Part shown: one piece after another, positions 2 to 26,134 of the stretch
Numbering within the stretch: the first letter of the stretch is position 1
Layout of the letters: the number at the start of each line of letters is the position of its first letter
Origin: an uncultured Pelagibacteraceae bacterium
GTDB taxonomy: Bacteria; Pseudomonadota; Alphaproteobacteria; Pelagibacterales; AG-422-B15
Length of the DNA stretch: 64,000 nucleotides
Assembly (NCBI GenBank): GCA_902524285.1
Contig: CABZCR010000001.1
Span: forward strand, 17,774-81,773
Direction: 5' to 3'
Notes under the pieces: model-generated
Databases searched by the model: none
Seen by the model: the letters and a program-made list of their open reading frames with translations, nothing else
What the model was told of the DNA's origin: nothing
Program-made: the position numbers and the translations under genes

Positions 2-1276
2 GCAGAGGCCTATGAAAGGTACAGTCGTGATGTCTTGAGGCAATGCAAAATTATCAAACCGCTATTAAAAATGACACCACCGGATTTAACTTCCTTTAAA
101 CCAAAAGATTTATTTGGCGCCCTGGAGTTTGCAAAACATTTTGCAGCAAAAGACGAGTTAGGTGGACTTGGTGAAAAAGAAATTTATGACACTATTCGAT
201 TTTATACAATGAGCATCAGAGACTATTTAGATGAATATTTTGAAAGTGATATTACAAAAGCGCACTTAGCTGGAAGTGCAATTATCGGAACTGCTCTTGG
301 TCCTTGCTCACCTGGCTCTGCTTACGTATTACTGCACCATTATATGGGAGAAGTAGATGGTTCAGTTGGAGCGTGGGGGTATTCAAGAGGAGGTATGGGC
401 TCTATTACAAAAGCAATGACAGGCTGCCTCAAGGCTCACGGCGGTGAAGTAAAACCAGATAATGAAGTCGTTAATGTCATTACTAAAAATGGTCGTGCGA
501 TTGGAGTTGCTACCAAAAAAGGTGATGAATATTACGCAAAAAAAATTGTATCTAACTTAGATGTTAAAAGAACATTCTTAAAAATTACTGAAGAAAGCTC
601 TTTACCTGGTGAATTTGTTGAAAGAGTTAAAAACTTTAAAATTAGAGGCTCATCGGGAAAACTTAATATTGCCCTAGACGGCCTTCCTGAATTCCCATGT
701 ATTCCAGAAGGTGATCCAGGTGGTGGAGGTGATATGCACTTCACAGAAACTATTGAAGAAATGGAAGGAGCCTATGATGATTGGAAACGAGGTGAATGGT
801 CAAGAAATCCTTATGTAGATATGTGTATTCCTTCTAAAAGCGACCCAACAATGGTAGCTCCGGGAAAGCATTATATGTCTGTCTTTATTCAATATGTTCC
901 ATTCAATCTTGCAAACGGCGGATGGAATGAAGAAAGAAAGCAAGAGTTTGGAAGACATATTGTTGATTGTATTGCTGAGTTTTCTCCTAATTTTAAAGAT
1001 TTAATTAACCACTACGAAGTTCGTACTCCATTAGAATTAGACAATGAAGTAGGATTGACAGAAGGAAACATCTTTCAAGGCGAATTAACAATGGATCAAC
1101 TTATGTTTAATAGACCTGTGCCTGGATATGCACAGTACAGAACACCACTTAAAAATATGTATATGTGCAGTTCATCAACTCATCCAGGTGGTGGAGTTAT
1201 GGGTGCACCAGGAGCGAATGCTGCAAGGGAGGTTCTAATTGATATGAATATCCCTCAAACAGGTAATTATTATTAA
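2..1276 (+). CDS. NAD(P)/FAD-dependent oxidoreductase, phytoene desaturase/PYROXD2-like (5' truncated by window edge)
   Basis: Frame is open upstream of the listed TTG to base 2 (AEAYERYSRDVLRQ...). C-terminal SSTHPGGGVMGAPGANAA motif typical of the family. Confidence 0.85.
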   Translation, partial: AEAYERYSRDVLRQCKIIKPLLKMTPPDLTSFKPKDLFGALEFAKHFAAKDELGGLGEKEIYDTIRFYTMSIRDYLDEYFESDITKAHLAGSAIIGTALGPCSPGSAYVLLHHYMGEVDGSVGAWGYSRGGMGSITKAMTGCLKAHGGEVKPDNEVVNVITKNGRAIGVATKKGDEYYAKKIVSNLDVKRTFLKITEESSLPGEFVERVKNFKIRGSSGKLNIALDGLPEFPCIPEGDPGGGGDMHFTETIEEMEGAYDDWKRGEWSRNPYVDMCIPSKSDPTMVAPGKHYMSVFIQYVPFNLANGGWNEERKQEFGRHIVDCIAEFSPNFKDLINHYEVRTPLELDNEVGLTEGNIFQGELTMDQLMFNRPVPGYAQYRTPLKNMYMCSSSTHPGGGVMGAPGANAAREVLIDMNIPQTGNYY

Positions 1277-2787
1277 TGTCAGATAATTATGACGTAATAG
1301 TTATTGGCGCAGGCCATAATGGTCTCGTTTGCGCTAATATTCTCGCAAAAAAAAACCGTAAAGTTCTGATTTGTGAGGCACGTGAGAATTGTGGGGGACT
1401 TGTTGAAGAGAGTATAACTAACTTCGTTCCTCAGATACCGCTGAGCGTATCAAGCTCTCTTGGTGGACTGCCAGTAAAGTATAAAGCAAAGTCTACGATT
1501 GCACTGTCAGAGTCTGGTCAACATATTCGCTTAGTTGGAAACCAACATATTGACCATAAAGTTATTTCTGGTTTCTCTTCGAAGGATGCAGACAGATATG
1601 TAGAATTTCATGATAAAATGTCGTCCTTTTCAAAGGCTTTAGGTTCTTTCATGATGGCTTCACCACCAAGGATCATGAATAATACTTTCTCTGATTATTT
1701 TAAATTATTCAAACTAGGCATGAATGTTCGAATGCTTGGAAAGAAAAAATTTAATGAGTTTGCAAGAATGATAGGGCTTAATATTGCAGACGAATTGGAA
1801 GACAATTTTGAAAATACTCTTTTGCAAGGCCTAATCGCCCATGACGCGGTGCTTGGCTCTAACTTGGGCCCAAGATCACCCGGCTCACTGATTAATCTAC
1901 TTTATCGTATGGCCACACATGACAACTCAATCTTTGGGGGAATATATGAAATTGATGGTGGCAGTAAAGCTTTTGTAGATACTTTGCTAGATATCAGTAA
2001 TAAAAATAAAGTTGAAATTAAAACTTCTTCATCGGTTAAAAGATGCATTACAGAAAATGATAAAGCAATAGGAGTTGAACTTCACAGCGGTGAAAAAATT
2101 TATGCAAAAAAAATTATTTCTAATGCAGATCCAAGATCGACTTATTTTAGTCTTTTAGGAACTGAGAATTTAGACACTGATGTGAAAAGAAGAATCAAAC
2201 ATCATCGATCAAAAGGAAAAGTTGCAAAATTATCATTAAGTCTTAATAAACAACCTGAATTTATTAACTGCGATAAAAATGATTTAGTGAGTAGAATGGT
2301 AATTGCTCCTTCAATTGATTATATAGAAGAGGCATTTAATCCAAGTAAGTTTGATAAACTTTCTATGGAACCTATTTTAGAAATGAAACTAAAAAATTCT
2401 GACCAGAGTAATCCTGTATTAGATATTCAAGTTCAATATGCTTCCTACGGTGCGCAGGAGGGTTGGGATAAAATTAAAGATAATTACGTAGATGCCGTTA
2501 TAAAATTAATAGGGAAATATGCACCTGATATTCAAAGCTGTATAGAGACTAAAACAATTGTTACTCCCGACGATATAGAGAAAAATTTTTATGTCTCAGG
2601 CGGACATTGGCATCATGGAGAAATTCAAATTGATCAGCTTTTTATGCTAAGACCAATTCCTGGGGCATCACAATATAGAACCCATCTTGACGGACTATAT
2701 ATGTGTGGTGCAGGTACTCATCCGGGTGGAGGTTTAACTGGAATTCCAGGAAAAAATGCAGCTCAAGCTATCTTGGAGGATGCATAA
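1276..2787 (+). CDS. NAD(P)/FAD-dependent oxidoreductase, phytoene desaturase-like (paralog of upstream gene)
   Basis: N-terminal VIVIGAGHNGLVCANILAKKNRKVLICEA Rossmann motif; C-terminal GAGTHPGGGLTGIPGKNAA. Confidence 0.88.
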   Translation: MSDNYDVIVIGAGHNGLVCANILAKKNRKVLICEARENCGGLVEESITNFVPQIPLSVSSSLGGLPVKYKAKSTIALSESGQHIRLVGNQHIDHKVISGFSSKDADRYVEFHDKMSSFSKALGSFMMASPPRIMNNTFSDYFKLFKLGMNVRMLGKKKFNEFARMIGLNIADELEDNFENTLLQGLIAHDAVLGSNLGPRSPGSLINLLYRMATHDNSIFGGIYEIDGGSKAFVDTLLDISNKNKVEIKTSSSVKRCITENDKAIGVELHSGEKIYAKKIISNADPRSTYFSLLGTENLDTDVKRRIKHHRSKGKVAKLSLSLNKQPEFINCDKNDLVSRMVIAPSIDYIEEAFNPSKFDKLSMEPILEMKLKNSDQSNPVLDIQVQYASYGAQEGWDKIKDNYVDAVIKLIGKYAPDIQSCIETKTIVTPDDIEKNFYVSGGHWHHGEIQIDQLFMLRPIPGASQYRTHLDGLYMCGAGTHPGGGLTGIPGKNAAQAILEDA

Positions 2788-2789
2788 AT

Positions 2790-3989
2790 ATGAATAGAGA
2801 TTTAAGATTTACAGCGCTTAAAAAAACCCCTTTTCACTCTAGAACAAGCTTAGCTTCAAGAACAAATAAATATTATAACTGGAACGGTTTTACCGTACCT
2901 ACAGAATACTCAACAACTGAGTTAGAATATACTGCTGCTAGAAATGGCACCTCAGTTATGGACCTCACACCTATGTGCAAATATATGATCAATGGCAGTA
3001 ATGCTAATAAATTTGTTGATTATCTTGTAACAAGAGATTTATCACAGATGGAAGACAATACAGTAGCATACATAATTTGGTGTAATGAAGATGGTAAAGT
3101 AATGGACGATGGCACCATATTTAAATTTTCGAATACAAAATTTATGCTTTGCTGTGCAGTAAAGATCTATAATTGGCTACATGACTCTGCTGAAGGTTTT
3201 GATGTTTCTTTTGAGGATGCAACAGACACAACGGCTGCATTAGCAATCCAAGGACCTACTTCTTGTTCAACACTAAAAAACTACGGAGCAGAGGACCTTG
3301 AATTATTAAAACCATTTGGAATGAAACAATATAATATTAATGGATATGATGTTTTGATCTCACGAACAGGCTTCACAGGTGATTTAGGATATGAATTATG
3401 GACTGATCCAGCTAATGCAGAAAACATGTGGGATAGTATCATGGAAGCTGGAAAAGAATTAAAGATTAGACCTTTTGGCATGCATGCTCTTGAGATGACA
3501 AGGATTGAAGCTGGCTTTATTCAAACCAATACTGATTTTATGGCAGCTGAAGGTTCCTTAAGACCAGTGAGAATGCGTTCACCGTATGAAATTGGAATGG
3601 GTTGGCTTGTTCATCTCAATAAAGAAAGTTACTTTGTCGGTAAACGCGCTTTAAAGAAAGAAAAAGAGACAGGTAATTCTGAAAGATGTTTAGTTGGACT
3701 GGACATAGATGGCGATAAGCCCGCAGTAGGCTCTGTGATTTATAATGAAAAAAAAGAAGATATAGGCATTGTTACGGCAGCAATGTGGTCACCTACTATG
3801 AAAAGAAACGTTGCGCTTGCGTCTCTAAAGCGTCCATATGGAATTAAGATTAAAGAAAATATTTTTGCAGAAATTTATCACCCAGAGGAATTGGAATATA
3901 AAAAAATATGGGCAAAGTGTAAGGTTGTAAAAAGACAATTTTTTAGCCCTGAAAGACGTAATAAAGTACCTGCAGACCTTTATGAATAG
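2790..3989 (+). CDS. GcvT-like aminomethyltransferase / folate-dependent demethylase family
   Basis: MDLTPMCKYMINGSNANKFVDYL, ISRTGFTGDLGYELW, HALEMTRIEAGF motifs. ORF track start (2703) overlaps the previous gene; ATG at 2790 preferred. Confidence 0.85.
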   Translation: MNRDLRFTALKKTPFHSRTSLASRTNKYYNWNGFTVPTEYSTTELEYTAARNGTSVMDLTPMCKYMINGSNANKFVDYLVTRDLSQMEDNTVAYIIWCNEDGKVMDDGTIFKFSNTKFMLCCAVKIYNWLHDSAEGFDVSFEDATDTTAALAIQGPTSCSTLKNYGAEDLELLKPFGMKQYNINGYDVLISRTGFTGDLGYELWTDPANAENMWDSIMEAGKELKIRPFGMHALEMTRIEAGFIQTNTDFMAAEGSLRPVRMRSPYEIGMGWLVHLNKESYFVGKRALKKEKETGNSERCLVGLDIDGDKPAVGSVIYNEKKEDIGIVTAAMWSPTMKRNVALASLKRPYGIKIKENIFAEIYHPEELEYKKIWAKCKVVKRQFFSPERRNKVPADLYE

Positions 3990-4056: not shown

Positions 4057-5454
4057 ATGCCCAAATCAACTCCGATTCCTGACAAAAAAGATCTTCTTAA
4101 TACTCTCGATGATAGAATTCTATACCCATGGCAGTATCTTGAGTATCGCGGTGAGGACAGCAGGACATTCATTGATAAGTCAAAAGGAATTTATCTTTAC
4201 GATCAAACAGGAAGACAGCTTATTGATGGTCCTGGAGGAATGTGGAATGTTAACGTAGGACATGGCGTAAAAGAAATTGCTGATGCCGTTTATAATCAGA
4301 TTACAAAAATGCCCTACGCCAGTCCATTCACGGAGTCCACTGAGATTGCATATAACTATGCTTCACGACTTGTTAAATATGCGCCCGGTGATCTTAAAAG
4401 AGTATTTTTCACGTCAGGAGGATCTTCAGCAGTAGACTCTGCATTAAGATTTGTAATGTTTTATAATAATGTTCGTGGGTTAAGAGATAAGAAACAAATT
4501 ATCTCACGTCATGATGCATATCACGGTAGTACATTTTTAGGGGCTTCATGCTCAGGTAAAGAAAGAGATAAAAACAACTTTGATTTTGCAGATAACTTAG
4601 TCCATCATTTGTCTGCACCAAATCCGTTTAAAAAACCAGATGATTTAAGTGATGAAGAATTCTGTGATTTAAAAGTTAAAGAGTTAGAAAATAAAATTTT
4701 AGAACTTGGTCAAGATAAGGTCGCAGCATTTATTGCTGAGCCAATCCTAGCATCAGGCGGGGTAATTGTTCCTCCTAAAGGTTATCACAAAAAGACAAGA
4801 GAAATTTGTACTAAGTACGATGTTATTTATATTTCTGATGAGATAGTAACCGGATTTGGAAGGTTAGGTCATATATTCGCTTCAGAAAATTATTTCGATT
4901 TAGAACCTGATATCATCCTTTTAGCAAAAGGGATTACTTCAGGATACGTACCTTGTGGTGCAGTTGTTATTTCTGAAAAGCTTATGTCTCAACTTGATAA
5001 TAAAGAAAAAGTAATATTTTCAAATGGATTTACTGACTCGGGTCACCCAGTCAGTATGGCAGCAGCAACAGCAACACTTGATTATATTGAAAAAAATAAC
5101 CTCCTTGAACATGTACAGGAAGTCGGCCCTTATTTTCAATCTAAATTAAGTGAATTAATTGATCTACCGATTGTTGGCGATGTACGTGGAGAGGGATTAA
5201 TGGCGGCTGTTGAATGTGTAATCAGTAAAGAAAAAAAAGATCCTCTGAATTTACAATACGAGATCGCTTCTCGCATCAATTCTCATTGTCAAAATCTTGG
5301 TTTAATTGTTAGACCGCTATTTAATACGTGTGTCATGTCTCCTTCTTTGATCATCACTAAGGAACAAATAGATGATCTCGTAAGTATACTTAGAAAAGGA
5401 ATTGAGTTAGCTACAAACGACATCAAGAAAGAAGGCCTTTGGTCTGCATCTTAA
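4057..5454 (+). CDS. Class III (omega) aminotransferase, PLP-dependent
   Basis: IYISDEIVTGFGRLG and LLAKGITSGYVPCGAVV (PLP lysine) motifs. Confidence 0.9.
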   Translation: MPKSTPIPDKKDLLNTLDDRILYPWQYLEYRGEDSRTFIDKSKGIYLYDQTGRQLIDGPGGMWNVNVGHGVKEIADAVYNQITKMPYASPFTESTEIAYNYASRLVKYAPGDLKRVFFTSGGSSAVDSALRFVMFYNNVRGLRDKKQIISRHDAYHGSTFLGASCSGKERDKNNFDFADNLVHHLSAPNPFKKPDDLSDEEFCDLKVKELENKILELGQDKVAAFIAEPILASGGVIVPPKGYHKKTREICTKYDVIYISDEIVTGFGRLGHIFASENYFDLEPDIILLAKGITSGYVPCGAVVISEKLMSQLDNKEKVIFSNGFTDSGHPVSMAAATATLDYIEKNNLLEHVQEVGPYFQSKLSELIDLPIVGDVRGEGLMAAVECVISKEKKDPLNLQYEIASRINSHCQNLGLIVRPLFNTCVMSPSLIITKEQIDDLVSILRKGIELATNDIKKEGLWSAS

Positions 5455-5458
5455 ATAA

Positions 5459-6697
5459 ATGCTTGAGTTTAACCATCTGCTAAAAAACTTTCAGGAGGGT
5501 AAAACTTTACCCCAAGACTTTTATACAGATTCAAATATTTTTTCCGAAGAGATGAAGCGAATCTATTTCAAACAGTGGTTAATGGTAGATCATATCAGTC
5601 GTATTCCTAATCCAGGTGATTATTTTGTTTTTGATGCCGAAAAGGAGTCCATCATAGTTATTAGAGGAAGAGACAATGAAGTAAGAGCATTTTATAATGT
5701 TTGCACACATCGAGGATCAAGAATTTGTTTAGATGAAGAGGGTTCAAAAAAACTTTTAGTGTGTCCCTATCATGCTTGGAGTTTTTCAGCAGAAGGTGAG
5801 CTTAAAGCTGCACGTTTTATGCCGGAGGATTTTAAAAAAGAAGAGTGGGGTCTTAGAGAGTGTCATCTTAAAATTTATGAAGGATTAATATTTATTAACT
5901 TATCATTAGAAGAACCGATGAATTTTGATGAATTCATTGAGCCTCTAAAGGAAATGATGGAATTTCATCAGACGAGTAAGTCAAAAATTGCGATAAGAAA
6001 AAAATATCCAACTCATGCAAATTTTAAATTAGTTCTTGAAAATTTTCAGGAGTGTTATCACTGTCCTACAGCACATCCTGAGCTTTGTGCAGTACAGGAT
6101 AAAGACTGGGTTGTCGCAATGGGTGCTGGAATAGGTACTGCGCCTCAAAAAGAGACTGATGAATATTTAAATAAAATTAAACCTTGGGTCGAGGAATGTA
6201 AAAAAAATGGAACCCCGTCTGAGGTTTACCTTGAGACAGACGAAGGATTAAAAAAAGGCTTAAACAGATATGTTGATAGAACTCCAATTGGAAACGGAAA
6301 CTTATCACAAACCAAAGATGGAAAGCCAGCATCTTCATTAATGGGACAGTTTAAAGATTTTGATGGAGGATTAACCCAAGTAAGCTTTAATCCATTTAGC
6401 TGTTGTTATTTTACAAATGATTTTGGTGTCATGTTTATTTTTAAACCCATCTCACTTCTAGAGTCTGAAGTGGAACTCATATGGCTCGTAAACGAGAAAG
6501 CTCAGGAGAATAAAGACTTTAAGCCCGAGGAAGTAAGCTATATTTGGGATGTTACTACGGCGCATGATACAACAATAATTGAAAATAACCAGGAAGGCCT
6601 TCTATCTCAGTCTTTTAAACCCGGAGTTTTATCTGAAAATGAGTCAGCGGTAACTTACTTTTATAATTGGTATTTTACCAACATGCAGTTACCATAA
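5459..6697 (+). CDS. Rieske [2Fe-2S] aromatic-ring-hydroxylating-type oxygenase alpha subunit
   Basis: CTHRGSRIC...CPYHAW Rieske motif; ENFQECYHCPTAHPEL mononuclear iron motif. Confidence 0.92.
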   Translation: MLEFNHLLKNFQEGKTLPQDFYTDSNIFSEEMKRIYFKQWLMVDHISRIPNPGDYFVFDAEKESIIVIRGRDNEVRAFYNVCTHRGSRICLDEEGSKKLLVCPYHAWSFSAEGELKAARFMPEDFKKEEWGLRECHLKIYEGLIFINLSLEEPMNFDEFIEPLKEMMEFHQTSKSKIAIRKKYPTHANFKLVLENFQECYHCPTAHPELCAVQDKDWVVAMGAGIGTAPQKETDEYLNKIKPWVEECKKNGTPSEVYLETDEGLKKGLNRYVDRTPIGNGNLSQTKDGKPASSLMGQFKDFDGGLTQVSFNPFSCCYFTNDFGVMFIFKPISLLESEVELIWLVNEKAQENKDFKPEEVSYIWDVTTAHDTTIIENNQEGLLSQSFKPGVLSENESAVTYFYNWYFTNMQLP

Positions 6698-6714
6698 TCT
6701 CTGAGCAAGAGAAT

Positions 6715-8070
6715 ATGAAGCAACTTTATAACAAAGATATTTACGACGTTAATAAGCCAGTTAAAAGTTATTGGGAAAAAGTCAGTCAAATAGAGCAAGA
6801 CAAATATCCTAAGCTCACAACTGATGAAAGCTGTGATGTTTGTGTAATAGGCGGCGGCTTTACTGGAATAAGTACAGCTTATCACATTGCAAAAAATTAT
6901 AGTGGCGATGTAAGATTACTAGAGGCTGGACATTTTGGATTTGCAAGCAGTGCAAGGAATGCTGGCTTTTGTTGTTTGCCTGCAACAAAACTATCGGTCA
7001 ACCAACTGATCACAAAATTTGGCCTGGATGAAACAAAGAAATTTTTTTCTTCTCAAATTGAAGGTGTTGAACTTTTATCCTCACTCATTTCTGAAAATAA
7101 TATTGAATGTGAAAAAACGGGTACAGGCAATCTAGATGTTGCTCATCACCCTGATAGTAGTGAGGAACTAAAGGAGTGGGGCAACGATCTTAAAAAATAT
7201 TTTGGTATTAACACCAAGTGGATACCCAAAGAGGAGTTTGATGAAGTTGGGCATCAGTCAACAGAACAATTTGGAGCTGTTTTTACTGAAGCAGGATTTG
7301 CGATGAACCCAATGGCTTTTATGAATGGTTTTGCATCAGCAACTGTAGATGTGGGAGCAAAACTTCATAGTTTTTCTAGAGTGAAAAAATGGGAAAGAAA
7401 CGGTTCACATAAATTAATTACAGATAGTGGATCGATTACTGCAAATAAGGTTGTTGTTGCAACAAATGGATACACGGATGAGTCTCTCCATCCAAGTTTT
7501 GCAAATAGAATGATGCCTGTTTTATCTAATATAATTGTTACTAGAGAAATGTCAGAAGATGAGTTTAAACTACAAAACTATAAAACTCTTAATCCAATCT
7601 GCAACTCTAGAGAGATCTTGTATTACTATAGAAGAATGCCTTCAAACAGGATGTTATTCGGAACAAGAGGCGACACCTACGGTGATGAAAAGAGCGCAGA
7701 GAAAATGCAAGAATTCATGACAAAAAAATTTCGAGGGGTATTTCCAAATTGGGACAAGGTCGAGATTGATCATTATTGGAGAGGCACCGTTGTTATGACG
7801 CGTGACTTTGTTCCGGCATTTGGTGCATTAGAAGAAGATAAGTCTGTATATTTTTCATACGGCTATCAAGCTAACGGCAACAATACAACTGTTTACTGTG
7901 GTAAAAAATTAGCTGAAATGATTTACGAGTCAAATAGTGGGGAGACAAATATTTCAAAAGTCTACCAGGGCCTTTCTCCTAAAATCCCATTCGGATTTTT
8001 AAGACTTTGGTACCTAAGGCTATACTTGTGGTACGCCAACCTTACTGATAGAAGCAAAAAAGAAATATAA
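6715..8070 (+). CDS. DAO-family FAD-dependent oxidoreductase (gamma-glutamylputrescine oxidase PuuB-like)
   Basis: CDVCVIGGGFTGISTAYHIAK; ARNAGFCC. ATG at 6715 preferred over listed 6667. Confidence 0.82.
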   Translation: MKQLYNKDIYDVNKPVKSYWEKVSQIEQDKYPKLTTDESCDVCVIGGGFTGISTAYHIAKNYSGDVRLLEAGHFGFASSARNAGFCCLPATKLSVNQLITKFGLDETKKFFSSQIEGVELLSSLISENNIECEKTGTGNLDVAHHPDSSEELKEWGNDLKKYFGINTKWIPKEEFDEVGHQSTEQFGAVFTEAGFAMNPMAFMNGFASATVDVGAKLHSFSRVKKWERNGSHKLITDSGSITANKVVVATNGYTDESLHPSFANRMMPVLSNIIVTREMSEDEFKLQNYKTLNPICNSREILYYYRRMPSNRMLFGTRGDTYGDEKSAEKMQEFMTKKFRGVFPNWDKVEIDHYWRGTVVMTRDFVPAFGALEEDKSVYFSYGYQANGNNTTVYCGKKLAEMIYESNSGETNISKVYQGLSPKIPFGFLRLWYLRLYLWYANLTDRSKKEI

Positions 8071-8107: not shown

Positions 8108-8992
8108 ATGTTACAGGCTTGGAAATCATTGTATGCAAAAAGTGATCCAGCGAAAGCTTTCTCACTACTTTCTCCCGCATTAATTCTTGTTACACTCGCA
8201 ATGCTTGTTCCAATGACACTCATGTTGAGTTTTAGCTTCTTCACTCAGATTAGTTTTACGGAAATTGATTACTCGTTTACAATTCAAAGATATATTGATT
8301 TTTTTCAGAAAAATTTACTTGTTTCACTTCTAATTAAATCAGTTAAAATCTCGTTTATTGTAACGCTAGTAACTCTTCTAACAGCTTACCCTGTCTGCTA
8401 CTACATCGCTTTTTACGTAAAAAAAAATAAAATGCTATGGCTGGTTTTATTAACCTTACCTTTTTGGACTTCTTATCTTTTAAGAGTTTTTTCGTGGAAA
8501 ATAATCCTTGGAACTAAAGGTGTAATTAATTCATCTTTGATTAATGCAGGACTTTTAAGTGAGCCTCTCACTTTTTTAATGTACTCTGAAACTGCAGTTA
8601 TAATTACACTTACGCACGCATGGGCTGCTTTTGCATTACTTCCACTATATGTTTCATTAGATAAAATAGATTTTTCGTTAATAGAGGCAGCTAGAGATTT
8701 AGGTTTATCAAGACTAGAAACTTTTTGGAAAATTACCTTACCACTATCTTTGCCAGGTATAATTGGAGCAATATTAATAATTTTTATTCCGACTGTTGGA
8801 GATTATGTTACCCCCGCCTTACTTGGTGGAACCGATGGAAGAATGTTATCAAATATGATCCAAGCATATTTTGGTAAAGTTAACAATCTTCCACTGGGTG
8901 CAGCTTCAGCAACCATTATGCTAATTACTGTTGCTATAGTTACAATTATTGTTTCATACACGACAAAAAAACTTAGTCAGAGGATTTCATAA
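8108..8992 (+). CDS. ABC transporter permease, spermidine/putrescine PotB-like
   Basis: Multi-TM, EAARDLGLSRLETFWKITLPLSLPGI (EAA loop). Confidence 0.85.
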   Translation: MLQAWKSLYAKSDPAKAFSLLSPALILVTLAMLVPMTLMLSFSFFTQISFTEIDYSFTIQRYIDFFQKNLLVSLLIKSVKISFIVTLVTLLTAYPVCYYIAFYVKKNKMLWLVLLTLPFWTSYLLRVFSWKIILGTKGVINSSLINAGLLSEPLTFLMYSETAVIITLTHAWAAFALLPLYVSLDKIDFSLIEAARDLGLSRLETFWKITLPLSLPGIIGAILIIFIPTVGDYVTPALLGGTDGRMLSNMIQAYFGKVNNLPLGAASATIMLITVAIVTIIVSYTTKKLSQRIS

Positions 8993-9808
8993 GTGGAACA
9001 AAAAAATAATCCATTATTAGTTTATACTTTGTTGTATTTTGCATTTTTGTACATTCCTGTTTTATTCTTACCTATTTTCAGTTTTAATGATGCAAATTAC
9101 ATGTCGTTTCCTCTATCAGGATTTACAACTGAACATTATGAAGAAATGTGGTCAAAAAGAAATTTGCATAATGCACTTTGGGCTAGTATTAAAGTTGGAG
9201 TTGTTGCAAGTGTCGTAAGTACAACAATTGCACTCTTTGCAGCAAAGGCTTTCGCAAGATATAAATTTAGAGGACAAAATATTTCATACGGGGCAATTAT
9301 GATGCCTTTTTTAATACCCGAAATTATATTAGCAGTATCAATTCTCATTATTTGGTTGAGTCTTGGCTTCAAATTAGGTCTTGTACCTGTAACGATTGGC
9401 CATATTCTTTTTTGCACTCCATTCGCAATGCTTATTTTAATTGCTCGTATAGAAGGATTTGATTTCTCTCTTGAAGAAGCATCGAGAGACCTGGGAGAAA
9501 ATGCTTGGGGTACGTTTTATCGAGTATCACTGCCATTATATTTACCTGGAATAATCGCTTCACTTTTATTAAGTTTTATTATTTCATTTGATGAATTTGT
9601 TCTTGCTTTTTTCTTAACTGGAAGTGATGCGACTCTGCCCATGTACATGTGGGCTCAAATGAGGTTTATTCAGAAATTACCACATGTTTTGGCACTTGGA
9701 GCTGTTATAATTGTATTTACTACCTTTATAGTTTTGCTAGCATTCTGGTTGAGGAACCTTGGACAAGGAAAAGAAAAGACAGAGTTTGGAATAAATATAC
9801 ATGAATGA
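8993..9808 (+). CDS. ABC transporter permease, spermidine/putrescine PotC-like
   Basis: EEASRDLGENAWGTFYRVSLPLYLPGI EAA loop; SFIISFDEFVLAFFLTG. GTG start. Confidence 0.85.
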   Translation: MEQKNNPLLVYTLLYFAFLYIPVLFLPIFSFNDANYMSFPLSGFTTEHYEEMWSKRNLHNALWASIKVGVVASVVSTTIALFAAKAFARYKFRGQNISYGAIMMPFLIPEIILAVSILIIWLSLGFKLGLVPVTIGHILFCTPFAMLILIARIEGFDFSLEEASRDLGENAWGTFYRVSLPLYLPGIIASLLLSFIISFDEFVLAFFLTGSDATLPMYMWAQMRFIQKLPHVLALGAVIIVFTTFIVLLAFWLRNLGQGKEKTEFGINIHE

Positions 9809-10883
9809 TTCTTTTATACAGATAAAACAGATTTCTAAGCATTTTGGAAATGTTAAAGCAGTTGATGATGTCTCCTTTCAAATTAAGGAAGGAGAGTTCT
9901 TCTCTTTATTAGGACCTTCAGGATGTGGCAAAACAACATTGTTAAGACTGCTTGCTGGTTTTGAGTATCCAACTAGTGGAAATCTATTACTTGATGGCAT
10001 TGATATCACTGCACTGCCACCTGATAAAAGACCAACAAATATGGTATTTCAGAATTATGCAATATTCCCTCATATAAATGTTGAAAAAAATGTACAGTTT
10101 GGTCTTAGAAAGCTTGGTCTAACTAATGAAGAGATTTATAAAAGAGTAAAGGATGTGTTGACTTTGGTTAAATTAGAGGGCTATGAAGAGCGATTTAGCA
10201 GCCAACTTTCAGGCGGTCAAAGACAGAGAGTAGCATTGGCAAGAGCACTAGTGAGACAGCCTAAAGTGTTATTACTTGATGAACCACTAGGAGCTCTGGA
10301 TAAGAAGCTACGTGATGAAATGCAACTCGAATTAAGAACTCTTCAAAAAGAAATTGGAATTACTTTTGTGTTTGTTACTCATGACCAACAAGAGGCCATT
10401 AGTATGTCAGATAGGGTCGCTGTAATGAGTGAGGGAAAAATTCAGCAAATGTCATCCCCAAATGAGTTATATAAAAACCCTCAGAACATATTCGTAAGTG
10501 ATTTCATTGGTGAAACAAACTTTTTACAAGCCAGTACGAAGTCTAAAGAAGGTGAATTTATAAATGTTGTAATCGAAGAATTAGGTGAATTTAAGATACA
10601 AAATAATCTTAATATTAGTGAAAATTCTTCAGAGGTAACATGCAGTATTCGTCCTGAAACTATGATGATTGATACAGTAAAATCTGACTGGGACATCTGC
10701 TTAGAAGGTGAAATCAAACAAACTTCATATTTAGGCGAAATGACAAAATTTTATGTTAAAACTAAAGAAATAGAAAAAATTATCACAGTTTCTTCACAAT
10801 ATTTTGATAATCAGTCTTTTAGAGATAATAAGTGTTTTATTAGTATTAATTTAAACGATATATCTTTGCTTTACAAAAAATAG
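9801..10883 (+). CDS. ABC transporter ATP-binding protein, PotA-like
   Basis: GPSGCGKTT Walker A, LSGGQRQRVALARAL signature, LLLDEPLGALD Walker B, C-terminal TOBE-like domain. Confidence 0.9.
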   Translation: MNDSFIQIKQISKHFGNVKAVDDVSFQIKEGEFFSLLGPSGCGKTTLLRLLAGFEYPTSGNLLLDGIDITALPPDKRPTNMVFQNYAIFPHINVEKNVQFGLRKLGLTNEEIYKRVKDVLTLVKLEGYEERFSSQLSGGQRQRVALARALVRQPKVLLLDEPLGALDKKLRDEMQLELRTLQKEIGITFVFVTHDQQEAISMSDRVAVMSEGKIQQMSSPNELYKNPQNIFVSDFIGETNFLQASTKSKEGEFINVVIEELGEFKIQNNLNISENSSEVTCSIRPETMMIDTVKSDWDICLEGEIKQTSYLGEMTKFYVKTKEIEKIITVSSQYFDNQSFRDNKCFISINLNDISLLYKK

Positions 10884-10940: not shown

Positions 10941-12029
10941 TTAACCGCCAGCTACCATTTCAGCCCATTGAGCTTCCATATAATCGGTTACTTCATCAGA
11001 TGGCATCACTGAGAACATTCCATTATTAAGGTGTTCAATTGGATTTGAAGCAACACCTCGCTCGGCTAGCTCGTCAGCGGTTAGAGTGCTGAAGCCTTTT
11101 TTGTTGCTATGTCCATAACCCCACTCACTTAGTAAGTAAGCTGAAGTCTCAGCACTTGTAGCACCATTTATCATTGCATATGCTTTATCAAGGTTTGCAC
11201 CTTTCACAATTGCAAGACCACACGCCCAGGTCATCGTGCCATTTGCAGGCTGCATCATTTTAGCTCCAGCAGACCATGCAATTTCATTCCATCCAAGAGC
11301 TACGTCTATTTCTTCGTTACCTAAAGCCTCAATCATTGAAGAAGTATCACCAAAGAAAGCACGTATTTGACCATTATCTCTCATTTCACGGAATTTATCG
11401 ATTCCTTGATCAATAGCAGCCTTGGTTAATTGGTCTTTATCTCTGATATCTATTCCAAGATGGTGCATCATTAAAAACAATGAGTCTGCAGCAGAGTCTA
11501 AAATTCCAACTTTACCTTTTACTCGAGGATCCTCCATAAGAGAAAAGCTTTCGTTAGAAGCATCCATCCAATCAATTCTATCAGCCATGTAAAACAATGT
11601 TGTGTCACCCCAATCTACAGGTGCAAAATAGTGTTTTCCATCAACCATTCCGCTTGGAAGATCTCTAACTTCCGGGAACATGTCATCCCAGTTTTCAATT
11701 CTAGATGGATCAAGTGGCTCTAAAACACCCGCTCTTACCCATCGCTTTATTTCTCCTTGGCATGGCCAAGCCAAATCAACCTGAAAACCAGCTTTTAATT
11801 TTTGTAATCCTTCTTCTGCATCACCAAATATTGAATATTCGGGAGAGCCGTGCTCTTCAGCGTATGATCCAAAAAGACCATCATCATCGTAACCTCCCCA
11901 TAGAAATACAGATCCAGGCTCATCTGCAAAAACTTTTGTTGTGCTTGTTATGCCAGCAATAAAAACAAATGATAGCAATACAACTATAGTTTTTACAAAA
12001 GAATTCTTAATTTCATTGTATCTTTGCAT
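10941..12029 (-). CDS. Periplasmic spermidine/putrescine-type substrate-binding protein (PotD-like)
   Basis: Signal peptide; VDLAWPCQGEIKRWVRAGVLEPLD; adjacent to Pot permeases/ATPase. Confidence 0.83.
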   Translation of the reverse strand: MQRYNEIKNSFVKTIVVLLSFVFIAGITSTTKVFADEPGSVFLWGGYDDDGLFGSYAEEHGSPEYSIFGDAEEGLQKLKAGFQVDLAWPCQGEIKRWVRAGVLEPLDPSRIENWDDMFPEVRDLPSGMVDGKHYFAPVDWGDTTLFYMADRIDWMDASNESFSLMEDPRVKGKVGILDSAADSLFLMMHHLGIDIRDKDQLTKAAIDQGIDKFREMRDNGQIRAFFGDTSSMIEALGNEEIDVALGWNEIAWSAGAKMMQPANGTMTWACGLAIVKGANLDKAYAMINGATSAETSAYLLSEWGYGHSNKKGFSTLTADELAERGVASNPIEHLNNGMFSVMPSDEVTDYMEAQWAEMVAGG

Positions 12030-12100: not shown

Positions 12101-13594
12101 TCAGTCTAGAATAGGCCTATTTTTCGCACTATTCAGCCACGGATCGACCATTTCGTAGTTGTACCCTCCTTGGAATACTAATTCATCACTGTAGGAGCGT
12201 GAGATAATCTGGATGCTAGTAGGTACTCGGTTTGAACTAAAGCCAGAGGGCACTGAAAGAACTGGTAATTTGCCTAACATATTAAATGGGTGAGACATGC
12301 ACCATGCAAAATCTGCACATTCTTGTTCTTTCTCATTTATAATGACGTGGTCATTAACTATATCAATATCAGCCTTGATTGCAGGTAAAGCATTGGTAGG
12401 ACAAATAAACAAATCATATTTTTCTAATATTGGTCCAATTTCTTCGTACATTTTTCCAGTTACAATTGCACTTTCTTCAACGCCATAACCCAAGTGAGCA
12501 CCAATTTGTTCATGATAGATTTTTTTATTATTTCTTAAAGATTCAATGTGCATTTCAGTAACACTGCTGAACATTTTTGTATAATCACTCAGCTGTTCTT
12601 TTTCTGAATCTGAAAGCCCAGAAATCTCTTTATAAAAAGAATTAGCATAATGACTGAAACAAACCGAATTTACTTCATCTTTTTTCCAATTAAGTTTCAC
12701 TTCTGTGACTTGACATCCAAGACTTTCAAATTTTTTTAATGCCATAAGAGTATTCTGTTCAACTTCTTTATCAACTTCAAAAAATCCTAAGTCCATTGAA
12801 TAAGCTATTTTCCAATTTTTAATATTTTCATAATTTAATGGTAATATTTTTTTTGGTCGTAAAGATGTTATATCTTTTTGGTTCGGCCCACACATAATGT
12901 TTTGCATCATTGCAGTATCAACCACTGTTCTTGCAAGCGGTCCTGTTACGCAGTAAGGGTCATGATTGAATGGATAACTTTGAGCATTTCTTCCATGAGG
13001 TGGCTTGAATCCAACTACACCGCATGCGCCTGCTGGTATTCTTATTGAACCTCCAATGTCACTTCCTGTAGTCAACATTGCGCAACCAGAAGCTAATGCT
13101 GCCGCACTGCCTCCACTTGATCCACCAGGTGTCATGTCTAAGTTCCAAGGGTTTCTTGTGACACCATTTAGTTTTGAGTGACAAAAAGAAGTGAGAGAAA
13201 ATTCTGGATTGGTTGTGCGACCGTGAAGTATCGCGCCAGAATTGACTATTGTTTCAACATCAATATCAGTTTTCTGTGCGATATTATTCTTGAGAAGTAA
13301 GCAACCATTACGATTCGGTTGTCCTTTAATATTCACTTCGTCTTTTATTGCTAGAGGTAAACCTTCAAGAGGCAGAACATCATTATTATTGGAAAATTTT
13401 TTCTCAGACTCTTTTGCGAGTTCTAAAGACTTATCAAAATCAAGATAATTAAATGCATTTATCTTAGGGTTAACTGTTTCTATTCTTTTAATTACAGCTG
13501 ACAGGACTTCAACTGGAGATAATTTTTTTTCTTTGTATTTCTCTAACGTATTTGAAGCGGATAAATAACAAATTTCAATATCAGTATCATTCAT
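12101..13594 (-). CDS. Amidase (amidase signature family)
   Basis: Lys LAIKDEVN; GGSSGGSAAALASG; TGSDIGGSIRIPAGACGVVGFKP. Confidence 0.93.
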   Translation of the reverse strand: MNDTDIEICYLSASNTLEKYKEKKLSPVEVLSAVIKRIETVNPKINAFNYLDFDKSLELAKESEKKFSNNNDVLPLEGLPLAIKDEVNIKGQPNRNGCLLLKNNIAQKTDIDVETIVNSGAILHGRTTNPEFSLTSFCHSKLNGVTRNPWNLDMTPGGSSGGSAAALASGCAMLTTGSDIGGSIRIPAGACGVVGFKPPHGRNAQSYPFNHDPYCVTGPLARTVVDTAMMQNIMCGPNQKDITSLRPKKILPLNYENIKNWKIAYSMDLGFFEVDKEVEQNTLMALKKFESLGCQVTEVKLNWKKDEVNSVCFSHYANSFYKEISGLSDSEKEQLSDYTKMFSSVTEMHIESLRNNKKIYHEQIGAHLGYGVEESAIVTGKMYEEIGPILEKYDLFICPTNALPAIKADIDIVNDHVIINEKEQECADFAWCMSHPFNMLGKLPVLSVPSGFSSNRVPTSIQIISRSYSDELVFQGGYNYEMVDPWLNSAKNRPILD

Positions 13595-13646: not shown

Positions 13647-14741
13647 ATGATAAGTGAAAAAATCAAAAGTTTAATACAGAATCAAGATCCACGTGAAGGA
13701 ATGGACCAACTTTTCTTTACAAATTCAGAAATATTTCATGCAAGTTATGATGCAATTTTCAAAAAACAATGGGTTTTTCTCACCCATCTTTCGTACTTTA
13801 ATCAAAATGATATCTTTACATACAACTTAAATAAAGGATTTATAGAGATAAAAAAAACAGATGATAGTCAACTTTCAATTTCCACATCTGATCCAAATAT
13901 TAAGTGTCATTTAAGAGTGTATGAGAGTTTAGTATTTATCAATTTATCAAGCTCTCCTTATTCATTTGATGAATTTATTAAACCACTTGAACCATACATT
14001 AAAATACATGGACTGAACGATGGTAAAATTGCTTTTCAAAAAGATTTTATTTTTAATGCTTCACATTTAGCTACAATTCATAATTTTAAAGAATGCGCTC
14101 ATTGCTGGGGAGGCGAATTTACTCACAAAGATTATCTAAGTGTTCATGGTGAGGATTATTGCAATTCTTATGGAGCAGGTGTTGGTTCGGGGATTGAGGC
14201 TCCTAAACTTTCAAAACGTATTAAAGAGTGGACAGAACAAACATTAAAAAGAGGGTTATTTGTTGGAGAGTTCAGTGAAGATGACTCAAAATATTTTAGA
14301 ATTGCAGAGCGCACACCCTTACCTGAAGGTATTGCATCAGAAACAATGGATGGCAGTTATTCTTGTTCAACATTGATGGGAGATTTTAGGGAGATTGGTG
14401 CTGACAATGGTTATACTGCAATTGGTTTCAGTCCATTTAACAGCTTTGTTGCAAATAACGAATTTGTGATACTTTTTTTATTCTCGCCAATTAGTCAAAA
14501 TAAAACAGTAGTGACCCAATATTGGGTAACTCATAAAGATGCGGAAGTTGATGTTGATAAAATGATTTTTTTGTGGGACCAAACTTCTACTGAAGATTCC
14601 CAGCTATGTGAAATGAACCAAAAGGGAATTGAAAGCAGGTCCTATCAGCCTGGCAAATATGGTGATTTAGAGACAAGTTTAGTTCAATATCAGAAATTTT
14701 ACCTTAATCATTTACAGACACACCTGATCGACTTAGTCTGA
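13647..14741 (+). CDS. Rieske-domain-less paralog of Rieske oxygenase alpha subunit
   Basis: Colinear with the 5459-6697 product (VYESLVFINLS vs IYEGLIFINLS; HNFKECAHC vs ENFQECYHC; YGAGVGSGIEAP vs MGAGIGTAP; CSTLMGDF vs SSLMGQF), but the CxH...CxxH region is absent. Confidence 0.8.
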   Translation: MISEKIKSLIQNQDPREGMDQLFFTNSEIFHASYDAIFKKQWVFLTHLSYFNQNDIFTYNLNKGFIEIKKTDDSQLSISTSDPNIKCHLRVYESLVFINLSSSPYSFDEFIKPLEPYIKIHGLNDGKIAFQKDFIFNASHLATIHNFKECAHCWGGEFTHKDYLSVHGEDYCNSYGAGVGSGIEAPKLSKRIKEWTEQTLKRGLFVGEFSEDDSKYFRIAERTPLPEGIASETMDGSYSCSTLMGDFREIGADNGYTAIGFSPFNSFVANNEFVILFLFSPISQNKTVVTQYWVTHKDAEVDVDKMIFLWDQTSTEDSQLCEMNQKGIESRSYQPGKYGDLETSLVQYQKFYLNHLQTHLIDLV

Positions 14742-14759: not shown

Positions 14760-16130
14760 ATGGAACTTGCAACACAATCAGAATTTGATGAAGTGCTTAA
14801 TCGTCATCATAATATCCAATATGTAGACGCAATATTTACAGACCTCTGTGGATATGTGAGGGGAAAAAGATTTCCAGTACTAGAGGCAGATAAAATTTTT
14901 TCAGATGGTGTATTGTTACCTTTTTCAGCATTTTATTTAGATGTCCTCGGTGGCGTAACCAACACGATGAATCTTGGTTGGACTGACGGAGATCCAGATG
15001 GGGTTTTAATGCCCGTTAAAAATTCCATTAAGCCCGTTCCTTGGGATAACAAGGTTCTTCAAGTACTAATTTCTATGAGAAAAGAACAGGAAAAATGGGG
15101 CGTAATAGAAAATCCAGCGGAAGTTGATCCAAGAAATATTTTAGAAAAAGTAATGAATAAATTCAAAGGCACTGGATTAAATCCAGTAGTAGCTTTTGAA
15201 TTAGAGTTTTATTTGTTGGATAAGAAAAGAAATGAGGAAGGCAAGCCAGTTCCTGCATTAGGTGCGAGCAAAACTCATGTATATGGAATTCCCGATCTTG
15301 ATATGTTTGGTGACTTATTTGATGAAATTAATGAGAACTGTAAAATTCAAGATATCCCTGCTACAACGGCTTCAAGTGAATTTGCTGCTGGCCAGTATGA
15401 AATTAATTTAAAACATACAGGCGACCTGCTTAAAGCTGCGGACGATGCTGCAATGTTAAGAAGAATAATAAAAGAAACAACTGCAAAGCATGGGTTTGAG
15501 GCAACATTTATGGCAAAGCCATTTCTTGAGGAGACTGGAAATGGAATGCACCTGCATATCTCAGTGTACGATGATAATGGAAAAAATATTTTTGCGACGA
15601 AGAATCGGTACGGAAATGACAAGTTAAAAAATGCTTTAGCTGGTTTCCAAGAAACTTTTTATGACTCATTTCCGATATTTATTCCAAATAGAAACGGTTA
15701 TCGAAGAATACAAACTCGAAATTTTGTTCCAGTGAATAAAAGTTGGTCATGGAATCGAAGAGATGTTTCATTAAGAATACCTGCTGGATCAGATAGCGCA
15801 AAAAGAATAGAACATCGGGTAGCATCAGCTGATGCAAATCCATATCTTGTTTTAGCTTGTATCCTCTCTGGGCTTCATCATGGACTAACAAAAAAACTAT
15901 CACCAACAGACCAAGTAAGTTTTGATAACACTGAGGGTGCTGACAAGACTGCTGATCCCGAAATGCCAAAAAATATGGAGTCAGCACTAAATCGTTTTAA
16001 AGAGTCAAAACTTCTATCTAAGTATTTAGGTAAAGAATATCTTGATTTATATGTATCAGCTAAAGAAGGTGAATTTGAACATATGGATAACAGTTTCATT
16101 CCTTCAGAAGAATACGATTTTTATTTATAG
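14760..16130 (+). CDS. Glutamine synthetase family protein (gamma-glutamylputrescine synthetase PuuA-like)
   Basis: VVAFELEFYLLD, GNGMHLHISVYD, RIEHRVASADANPYLVLA motifs. Confidence 0.88.
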   Translation: MELATQSEFDEVLNRHHNIQYVDAIFTDLCGYVRGKRFPVLEADKIFSDGVLLPFSAFYLDVLGGVTNTMNLGWTDGDPDGVLMPVKNSIKPVPWDNKVLQVLISMRKEQEKWGVIENPAEVDPRNILEKVMNKFKGTGLNPVVAFELEFYLLDKKRNEEGKPVPALGASKTHVYGIPDLDMFGDLFDEINENCKIQDIPATTASSEFAAGQYEINLKHTGDLLKAADDAAMLRRIIKETTAKHGFEATFMAKPFLEETGNGMHLHISVYDDNGKNIFATKNRYGNDKLKNALAGFQETFYDSFPIFIPNRNGYRRIQTRNFVPVNKSWSWNRRDVSLRIPAGSDSAKRIEHRVASADANPYLVLACILSGLHHGLTKKLSPTDQVSFDNTEGADKTADPEMPKNMESALNRFKESKLLSKYLGKEYLDLYVSAKEGEFEHMDNSFIPSEEYDFYL

Positions 16131-16134
16131 ATTT

Positions 16135-16854
16135 ATGACTGATCTGCTTTTCAATCAAGATAGTTACTTAAAAGAAACAGAAGCCAGTATTATTGGAGTT
16201 GAAGAAAATATTATACAATTGGATCGAACAATTTTTTATGCAGAGTCTGGTGGGCAACCTGGAGATCAAGGCGAGATTGTCTTAAAGGACCAAGTTCTCA
16301 AAGTTGTAGACACTAAAAAAGGATCAAAGCCGAATGAAATTTTGCATATTGTTGATGGTCCCATCGATCAAAGCTTAATCAATCAATCCGCCGAACTTAA
16401 GATCAATTGGGAACTTAGATATGCTCATATGAAAATGCATTCGAGTTGCCATATTTTGTGTAGCTTAGTTGATGCCCTTATAACAGGCGCATCGATTGGA
16501 AGTGCTAAATCAAGAATAGATTTTGATGTTGATCCATCAATGCTAAATAAAGAAGAGTTAAATGAGAAGATTAGGGATATTATTAGTAAAGACTATCCCA
16601 TAATCATAAATCAAATTACTGGAGATGAACTAAAATCAAATCCTCACTTAGCGAAAGGAGCTGCCGTTTCACCTCCAGTTATAGATAACAAAGTACAAAC
16701 AGTTCAAATTGGTGAGGGAGAAAACATTATCGATCTTCAATGTTGTGGAGGAACACATTGCCAATCTACGAAAGAAATTGGACCACTTGAGATTGGAAAG
16801 ATTGAAAATAAAGGTAAGAGAAACAGGCGAATTAATATAAGGTTTAGTTCATGA
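16135..16854 (+). CDS. Alanyl-tRNA editing protein (AlaX-like)
   Basis: DRTIFYAESGGQPGDQGEI; AHMKMHSSCHILCS; LQCCGGTHCQSTKEIG zinc motif. ATG at 16135 preferred. Confidence 0.88.
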   Translation: MTDLLFNQDSYLKETEASIIGVEENIIQLDRTIFYAESGGQPGDQGEIVLKDQVLKVVDTKKGSKPNEILHIVDGPIDQSLINQSAELKINWELRYAHMKMHSSCHILCSLVDALITGASIGSAKSRIDFDVDPSMLNKEELNEKIRDIISKDYPIIINQITGDELKSNPHLAKGAAVSPPVIDNKVQTVQIGEGENIIDLQCCGGTHCQSTKEIGPLEIGKIENKGKRNRRINIRFSS

Positions 16855-17615
16855 CGGATATTTTAGTCAGTAAGGATGATGGACAAGTTGTAACGCTCAC
16901 TCTTAATGATGCTCCAGCAAATTGCCTGACAATGGAGATGATGTCAGCAATTAAAATGGAGATAGATCGTGTAAATCAATCCAAAGATCACAAACTTGTA
17001 ATATTTGAAAGTTCAAATGAAAAAATCTTTTGTAGCGGACATAGTTTTAATGAAGTTCAAGAGATGATTAAGAATAATGATAAAAAATCACAAGAACTTC
17101 TATTTGCGGAGTGCTCTGAAATGTTAATGAAAATTAGAACAAGTCCAAAGATTTTTGTTGCTAAAGTAAGAGGTATTGCAACCGCTGGCGGACTAGGATT
17201 AGTCAGTATAATGGATTGTGTTTTTAGTTCTAAATCAGCAAGATTTGCACTTGGTGGTATAAACTTTAATTTTGGTTGTCATCAACCGTCAGTATCTGTA
17301 GCCCGTGCAATATCTTCAAAAAATGTTATGGAATTATTAGTGAGTGGTCAGCCTCTTAATGCTCAAAGAGCACAAGAAGCAGGACTCATCAACGAATATT
17401 TAGAAGATGACAAATTAGATAAAAGGGTAGAACTTTTTTCTCAACAAGTTTGTGATCATACACCCGAAGTACTCGCGCTCACGAAAGAAACATTATATAA
17501 GCAGTCAGCAATGAAAATTTCTGATGCCTACGACTTTGCAAGTAAAGCAATGGTTGAAAATCTACAAATGCCTGAAACCAAAAAAGGTATAGACACTTTT
17601 TTAAATAAAAACTAA
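16851..17615 (+). CDS. Enoyl-CoA hydratase/isomerase family protein
   Basis: SNEKIFCSGHSFNEV; VRGIATAGGLGLVSIMDCVFSS. Confidence 0.88.
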   Translation: MTDILVSKDDGQVVTLTLNDAPANCLTMEMMSAIKMEIDRVNQSKDHKLVIFESSNEKIFCSGHSFNEVQEMIKNNDKKSQELLFAECSEMLMKIRTSPKIFVAKVRGIATAGGLGLVSIMDCVFSSKSARFALGGINFNFGCHQPSVSVARAISSKNVMELLVSGQPLNAQRAQEAGLINEYLEDDKLDKRVELFSQQVCDHTPEVLALTKETLYKQSAMKISDAYDFASKAMVENLQMPETKKGIDTFLNKN

Positions 17616-24758: not shown

Positions 24759-26134
24759 TGATATTATCTTACATTCTAGACCCTAATCTTATAGATTTTG
24801 ATATTGAATTAACACAAAAACGTATAAAACATTTATTCCAAGCTGTATTGATTATAGACAAAAACAAAAAATTAGAGTCTGAATACAAAAAAATTATCAA
24901 TGAAATATCCTCTAATAATCCAATAAAATCTGGTATTCTCGATTATTATCTTTTTCCGGAAAAATCATCCATAAATACTTTTACGGATTTTACTTTAGAG
25001 AAAAAGTTATGTGCAAATTTTACTTATGAAAAAAATTTCAATGAATTTGTAATAAAATTAGTTAATGCAGGCTTTATACTAGATTTCGTGCTTACAACCG
25101 AAGAAAATAAAAAAATTTTAACTCATGAGCTAAAAAATATAAGTCACTCAAGGAAGATAAGATTCTTAACGGAAAAAAAATCTGAAGATAAGACATTCAG
25201 GGAACGAGAAGAGTATGATCAAAGCCTTGATCTGATTGATGAAATTAAGAATAAAAAAATTAAACTCCCAGATGATAACGAACAGTTTTACAGACTTATG
25301 TCGTTTTCAGACTATTTAGAAATTTCTTTACAAGAATGGTCAAGTACTATTCAAGCAAGCCGTTCCGATACTAAAAATTATAATGAGAAATATAAAGTAG
25401 AAAATTTTAATAGTTATTCTTTCAGTAGAAAAGTTTCAAATTATGATGAATTAGTTCGTACATACAAACAAATTCATTTAATAGAAGATATTATTAGGTC
25501 TTTTATAAGTAGAAAAAGAAGAGGGTGGAAGTATATCAACGGCTCAACTTTTATTCAAAACACAATAAACATAAATGGTGATCAGTTTCTTGAACATTTA
25601 TTATCATTTTCTTACTTTCTCGATATTTACGTAGAATGTATTCAAAAAAAACAAATAAATTATATAAAACATCCTCAACTGGTTTTAGTTTTACCTCAGC
25701 GGTCGAAAGTTAAGAAAAGTAAAAAAGAAGCGATATCAATACCTTGGACAAAACTATTTAAAGAATTAATAGAAAGATATATTGAAGTTAAGTATTCTAA
25801 ATATGATGTAGTGCCTGAAATAGAATTTAAGTTTCTACCTGAAGTGAAAGATAATAAAAAAAAATCAAAAGCTACTCACATGAGATATATTTTAACAAAG
25901 CAAAATGCAATCGATTTGAGAACCTCATCAATTTTTACGTCCACACAAATAAACTCTAGACTAGACCTAAAAAATATTACTGATTTTAACGAATTTTTAG
26001 ATAATTTAGAATTAGTTCATAAAGATTCTGAATTTTCTGTTATTAGAGGTCCAGCAAAACCGAGTCATGAAAGAAATACTGAATTAGATGATTTTATGAC
26101 TTTTAGAAACGCTCGGTTTGAAAATAGAATTTAA
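24758..26134 (+). CDS. Unknown protein paired with ATPase (candidate effector)
   Basis: 458 aa; start codon overlaps ATPase stop (taATGa), implying translational coupling; C-terminal THMRYILTKQNAI. Confidence 0.75.
   Translation: MILSYILDPNLIDFDIELTQKRIKHLFQAVLIIDKNKKLESEYKKIINEISSNNPIKSGILDYYLFPEKSSINTFTDFTLEKKLCANFTYEKNFNEFVIKLVNAGFILDFVLTTEENKKILTHELKNISHSRKIRFLTEKKSEDKTFREREEYDQSLDLIDEIKNKKIKLPDDNEQFYRLMSFSDYLEISLQEWSSTIQASRSDTKNYNEKYKVENFNSYSFSRKVSNYDELVRTYKQIHLIEDIIRSFISRKRRGWKYINGSTFIQNTININGDQFLEHLLSFSYFLDIYVECIQKKQINYIKHPQLVLVLPQRSKVKKSKKEAISIPWTKLFKELIERYIEVKYSKYDVVPEIEFKFLPEVKDNKKKSKATHMRYILTKQNAIDLRTSSIFTSTQINSRLDLKNITDFNEFLDNLELVHKDSEFSVIRGPAKPSHERNTELDDFMTFRNARFENRI

Follow-up and report, generated by a model that had tools for sequence, protein, structure and literature searches.

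Gene neighbourhood

The window (the whole stretch of DNA that was analysed, 64,000 nucleotides long) carries a cluster of genes for flavoproteins, an aminotransferase, a transporter, an amidase and a ligase, together with two related oxygenase genes. One of the two encodes an intact Rieske oxygenase; the other has lost the segment that binds the Rieske [2Fe-2S] cluster and is called here the Rieske-less gene. The features of the cluster are as follows:

35..2787, + strand: two CrtI-like FAD oxidoreductases, the first of which begins before the window
2703..3989, + strand: GcvT-like protein (folate-dependent demethylation), whose real start probably lies some 30 codons inside the listed ORF
4057..5454, + strand: class III aminotransferase (PRK07036, above cut-off)
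5459..6697, + strand: intact Rieske oxygenase paralog (P0002, 412 aa), the proposed heteromer partner and source of electrons
6667..8070, + strand: DAO-family flavin amine oxidoreductase
8108..10883, + strand: ABC transporter, two permeases and an ATPase (8108-8992, 8993-9808, 9801-10883)
10941..12029, - strand: periplasmic binding protein, polyamine-type, SBP_bac_8
12101..13594, - strand: amidase, divergent from the Rieske-less gene
13647..14741, + strand: Rieske-less oxygenase alpha-subunit homolog (P0001, 364 aa), from BLASTP, Pfam, alignment and AlphaFold2 model
14760..16130, + strand: glutamine-synthetase-like ligase (gamma-glutamyl-amine / type III relatives)
16042..17615, + strand: AlaX-like editing-domain protein and enoyl-CoA hydratase, downstream and in the same direction

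The Rieske-less gene lies 52 bp from the divergent amidase, and the ligase follows 18 bp downstream; the Rieske-less gene and the ligase likely belong to the same operon. The ORF at 35-1276 is the 3' part of a longer gene (L090:9422-11050), whose start lies before the window and which encodes a CrtI-like flavoprotein of 542 aa. The gene order of the cluster is common to the whole genus, even at 67% identity, and is also kept in a neighbouring genus. The pairing of the two oxygenases, which the earlier note had pointed out in this window, recurs in relatives: the intact paralog is present in 26 of the 32 genomes with a Rieske-less gene, in 24 of them on the same contig at a distance of about 7-8 kb, and in the other six the contig stops short of the paralog position.

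As far as function can be read from the sequence, the gene content points to a route in which an amine or amide is oxidatively N-demethylated and broken down. The mix of GcvT-like protein, flavoproteins and oxygenase brought a homarine-type pathway to mind; no literature support was found for such a link, and the candidate was dropped.

Relatives of the intact oxygenase occur in other settings. One (G221, L123:7428-12192) lies beside a trimethylamine-dehydrogenase-like flavoprotein and an amidase, and another, on a Yoonia plasmid (L137:8818-17061), beside an agmatinase, FAD oxidoreductases and an aminotransferase; at these two loci the intact-oxygenase subfamily shows a recurring link with amide or amidine hydrolases. 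Elsewhere in the window, 22623-24758 encodes an AAA ATPase with matches to the defence ATPases NsnB, PDC-M55A and AriA. It is followed at 24758-26134 by a 458-aa partner with no PADLOC match, and together the two are a possible defence pair. A helicase-like protein with a weak PbeA match (27876-29564) lies near these possible defence genes.

The Rieske-less gene and its missing segment

The ORF at 13647-14741 had been described in the earlier note as an oxygenase homolog related along its whole length to the product of 5459-6697, with the [2Fe-2S] segment missing in frame. Its coordinates are exact, and the motifs quoted as shared by the two proteins are all present. BLASTP confirms the full-length relation (116/410 identical, 28%, E 7e-53), and the gap in this alignment falls on the Rieske cluster-binding part. 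Pfam finds Ring_hydroxyl_A in the 364-aa protein (E 1e-12) and no Rieske domain; the 412-aa paralog matches both. The CxH...CxxH [2Fe-2S] segment is cleanly deleted, here and in every ortholog read.

N-terminal helices and a strand-rich basal Rieske remnant occupy residues ~1-103, and the catalytic Ring_hydroxyl_A domain residues ~104-364. The description "Rieske-domain-less" is correct for the cluster-binding segment and slightly too strong for the domain as a whole: the strand-rich base at residues 43-99 is kept in the AlphaFold2 model, and the cluster-binding segment is the sole loss. The best NCBIfam model for both proteins is GbcA (NF058607, glycine betaine monooxygenase oxygenase subunit), which scores 134.4 bits with the 364-aa protein and 300 with the paralog; both values are below the curated cut-off of 670, so neither protein is a member.

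Conservation and selection

Orthologs of the Rieske-less gene are present in 32 of the 60 genomes searched (own genome included); they are 67-98% identical, own copy excluded, and complete copies are 364 aa long. The order-wide search recovered cluster-less orthologs in 43 of 398 genomes, distributed over three genera of one family of bacteria with small genomes, with no match outside that family. No Rieske-less ortholog was found outside the family in 386 genomes of the class (E 1e-40), and the matches read in a phylum sample of 399 genomes are full-length oxygenases with the Rieske motif. Among the plasmid matches listed, most carry the annotation of an oxygenase alpha subunit.

Selection on the gene is strongly purifying. 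NG86 dN/dS comes to 0.069 in one main clade and 0.055 in the other; in the same order, the catalytic domain gives 0.044 and 0.019, and the leftover Rieske base 0.198 and 0.108. The intact paralog gives 0.026 and 0.027 for its Rieske domain and 0.047 and 0.029 for its catalytic domain. These regional values indicate that the catalytic half of the Rieske-less protein is held as tightly as that of a presumably working enzyme, whereas the Rieske remnant has lost constraint. The view that the gene encodes a retained functional subunit and not a pseudogene is well supported by purifying selection, conserved length and family-wide synteny.

Predicted iron site and structure

Two features within the Rieske-less gene define its predicted iron site:

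14085..14126, + strand: iron-site motif FKECAHCWGGEFTH, residues 147-160, with bridging E149 and ligands H152 and H160 (H-x7-H, not H-x4-H), from sequence, alignment and orthologs
14595..14597, + strand: codon of D317, predicted third iron ligand (TSTEDSQLCEMNQKG), from alignment and orthologs

Residues W42, N146, E149, H152, H160 and D317 are invariant in the 50-row family alignment, Rieske-less rows included. H152, H160 and D317, together with E149, are likewise invariant in 27 same-length orthologs and in L032, the most divergent ortholog in the genus. By comparison with the family, the presumed iron ligands (two His and one Asp) and the bridging carboxylate are among these invariant positions. 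The displacement of the second metal His, noticed at first reading, proves to be a 3-residue insertion (HCWGGEFTH), which gives a spacing of H-x7-H instead of the canonical H-x4-H and leaves all four residues invariant. The full-length oxygenases checked retain H-x4-H. In the carnitine monooxygenase CntA (group V), mutants of the equivalent bridging Glu are inactive and intersubunit electron flow is disturbed (PMC7948474).

The AlphaFold2 model of the 364-aa protein, built with the 50-row alignment, is of high overall confidence (pLDDT 91.8, pTM 0.91); a 4-row alignment had been uninformative (pLDDT 41) and was replaced. The catalytic fold is recognised both by Pfam (Ring_hydroxyl_A) and by structure (3n0q, TM 0.85 to the model). 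Confidence is low at the iron loop, with pLDDT ~62 at residues 151-160 and 171-180. Conservation within the protein is highest in the iron-site stretch, with identities of 0.97 and 0.82 between clades vs 0.62 and 0.48 in the N-terminal remnant.

All Rieske-less members but one depart from the family's best-conserved motif: NWKL has become SHLA, H-x4-H has become H-x7-H, and ECYH has become ECAH or ECNH. The exception is a 359-aa ortholog, ~39-40% identical, in the 98% complete genome G802 from another genus of the family. It is without the same cluster segment and keeps NWKL, ECYHCGPAH (H-x4-H) and the Asp. In the other members the altered motif could mean changed or lost iron chemistry.

Pseudo-subunits are common in enzyme evolution, and the Rieske-less protein might be one of them: a catalytically dead subunit without redox chemistry that serves the intact oxygenase in structure, substrate binding or regulation. 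The deleted cluster, the iron motif remodelled in all members but G802 and the low model confidence at the iron loop would fit such a role. This reading is nonetheless unlikely, given the invariance of the bridging Glu and of all three ligands, the peak of conservation in the iron-site stretch, a selection on the catalytic domain as strong as on the intact paralog, and a fully canonical site in G802 despite its missing cluster. At the level of sequence, the comparisons show a conserved oxygenase homolog, accompanied by an intact paralog, that is under strong selection and retains the predicted ligand residues and the bridging Glu. Of the readings compared, the likeliest is an iron oxygenase subunit that works, or once worked, with electrons from the Rieske cluster of the intact paralog in a mixed trimer.

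History of the two paralogs

The intact G802 paralog is 420 aa long and lies ~5.5 kb from the Rieske-less copy. The Rieske-less and intact copies of the family group together in the tree (86/82). A constraint that places all Rieske-less copies in one clade is not rejected (p-AU 0.55), and a long branch (0.98) separates the G802 type from the remaining Rieske-less members. The combination in G802 of a lost cluster and a canonical iron site suggests that cluster loss came first and remodelling of the iron site later. The simplest history would be a duplication at the base of the family, a single loss of the cluster segment, and remodelling of the iron loop along the long branch.

In a fourth genus, g459 (genome 61% complete), an intact oxygenase gene (L178:3267-4508) ends a shortened cluster; DAO, transporter and Rieske-less genes are absent from its immediate surroundings. 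This intact copy without a Rieske-less neighbour indicates that the intact paralog can probably work alone. The incomplete g459 genome thus hints weakly that the dependence between the two paralogs may be one-way.

Electron source and proposed mechanism

Rieske oxygenases are usually described as alpha-homomeric, with both centres in each subunit and electrons crossing to the neighbour, and Rieske-type enzymes need a built-in electron-relay part. Six genomes at least 90% complete (G021, G024, G033, G016, G001, G025) gave no match to the FNR-family reductase model PF00175 and no NdmD-type Rieske-reductase fusion, and the own genome gave no match to PF00970. Apart from the paralog, the near-complete genomes contain as Rieske proteins just one further oxygenase and a short protein of bc1 type; ferredoxin-domain proteins are also present. 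The non-detection of an FNR-type reductase in the six genomes makes an NdmD-like donor unlikely, and, with the Rieske proteins limited to two oxygenases and a bc1-type one, the intact paralog is the most economical donor.

The other oxygenase (380 aa), which recurs in the majority of the near-complete genomes of this genus, is unlinked to the cluster and is 27% identical to the paralog. Its gene (L091:9356-10498; G000:C1 ~209.4-210.5 kb) adjoins an amidohydrolase and an M24-type peptidase, an arrangement that is ectoine-degradation-like by eye.

The proposed mechanism starts from an alpha-type subunit of a quaternary-amine-type (GbcA/Stc2-like) Rieske oxygenase, which would have been duplicated at the base of the family. 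One copy then lost its cluster-binding segment, apparently once, and kept its presumed mononuclear-iron ligands and bridging Glu under strong purifying selection. The Rieske-less subunit and the 412-aa paralog would form a mixed head-to-tail trimer, in which the Rieske cluster of the neighbour docks at E149 against the Rieske-less iron site and donates electrons. In the amine/amide catabolic route that the two would share, the Rieske-less subunit might catalyse a second oxidation or serve to bind another substrate, and the later remodelling of the iron loop (H-x7-H) in most members would presumably reflect a changed substrate or chemistry.

Among the options raised in the earlier note, electrons from the intact paralog give the best fit, since neither the presumed iron ligands nor the Glu that bridges subunits has been lost and the genomes searched yielded no Rieske-bearing reductase; the option of a non-redox subunit or regulator is less favoured and is kept alive by the remodelling of the iron-site motif in most members. 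The transfer of electrons from the paralog's Rieske cluster in a mixed trimer is tentatively proposed, at somewhat below an even chance. A similarly guarded estimate, just short of even, applies to the wider statement that there is either a division of labour by paralogy (one paralog with the Rieske relay, its Rieske-less sibling with a second, remodelled H-x7-H chemistry in the mixed trimer) or a sibling iron oxygenase without external electrons.

The protein might instead be a reductant-independent iron enzyme, either an Fe(II) scaffold with electrons supplied by the substrate or a non-redox lyase or hydrolase, for which a Rieske cluster would be unnecessary. Conserved ligands with changed spacing and neighbouring residues, the lack of a detected FNR-type reductase in the genomes searched, and a stable cluster loss with the remainder strictly constrained all agree with this. 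It is rather unlikely in view of the invariant bridging Glu, a residue known to accept electrons from an adjacent Rieske cluster, of the G802 form, canonical save for the missing cluster, and of the intact paralog, present wherever contig context allows.

NdmC, a proven Rieske-less oxygenase, receives its electrons from the extra Rieske domain of the reductase NdmD (PMC4408171, PMC10380055). By analogy, electrons could come from another Rieske- or ferredoxin-bearing protein, e.g. the 380-aa oxygenase or a [2Fe-2S] ferredoxin directly, and proteins of both kinds occur in these genomes. Such a donor is quite improbable, however: neither an FNR-family reductase nor a Rieske-reductase fusion was detected in the six near-complete genomes, and the other oxygenase is unlinked and more distant from the paralog. 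A pseudogene, an assembly error or a recent truncation, which the missing family-defining segment might bring to mind, is hardly credible in view of the open frame, the conserved length in ~40 genomes of three genera and in a 40%-identical member, the synteny, and an overall dN/dS of 0.055-0.07.

Comparison with known systems

If the proposed mechanism is true, the pair would form a naturally mixed enzyme, its cluster and iron site set apart, that has lasted as long as the bacterial family itself and without an NdmD-like reductase. It would offer a direct test of intersubunit transfer, and of whether an iron site works without its own relay, as well as a modular design for biocatalysts. The finding also points to an amine/amide catabolic route.

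Among solved structures, the stachydrine demethylase Stc2 (3vca, 4qur) and TM1040_3219 (3n0q) match best, both in sequence and in fold (TM 0.84-0.85 on the query). Both are group-V oxygenases, and the Stc2 substrate is a quaternary amine; both, however, have an intact Rieske cluster, and Stc2 is only ~22% identical to the 364-aa protein. GbcA, the best NCBIfam match, is discussed above. CntA, also a fold match, is a quaternary-amine Rieske oxygenase whose three alpha subunits are arranged head to tail and pass electrons to one another by way of a bridging Glu (PMC7948474); it is a homotrimer with its own cluster in every subunit, and its sequence similarity to the 364-aa protein is low.

The closest parallel for the loss itself is NdmC, the caffeine N7-demethylase subunit of Pseudomonas putida CBB5, which likewise has a non-heme iron domain and lacks the Rieske [2Fe-2S] cluster and whose gene cluster also encodes the intact Rieske N-demethylases NdmA and NdmB (PMC4408171, PMC10380055). 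NdmC requires NdmE and draws its electrons from NdmD, a reductase that has an additional Rieske domain, whereas here an FNR-type reductase or Rieske fusion was not found in the genomes searched and no GST-like NdmE partner is seen within the cluster. The 364-aa protein further differs in being of the GbcA/Stc2 type, with part of the Rieske base kept and, in most members, H-x7-H. NdmC is a precedent for a Rieske-less oxygenase, and the present protein is a GbcA/Stc2-type variant that stands beside its intact paralog.
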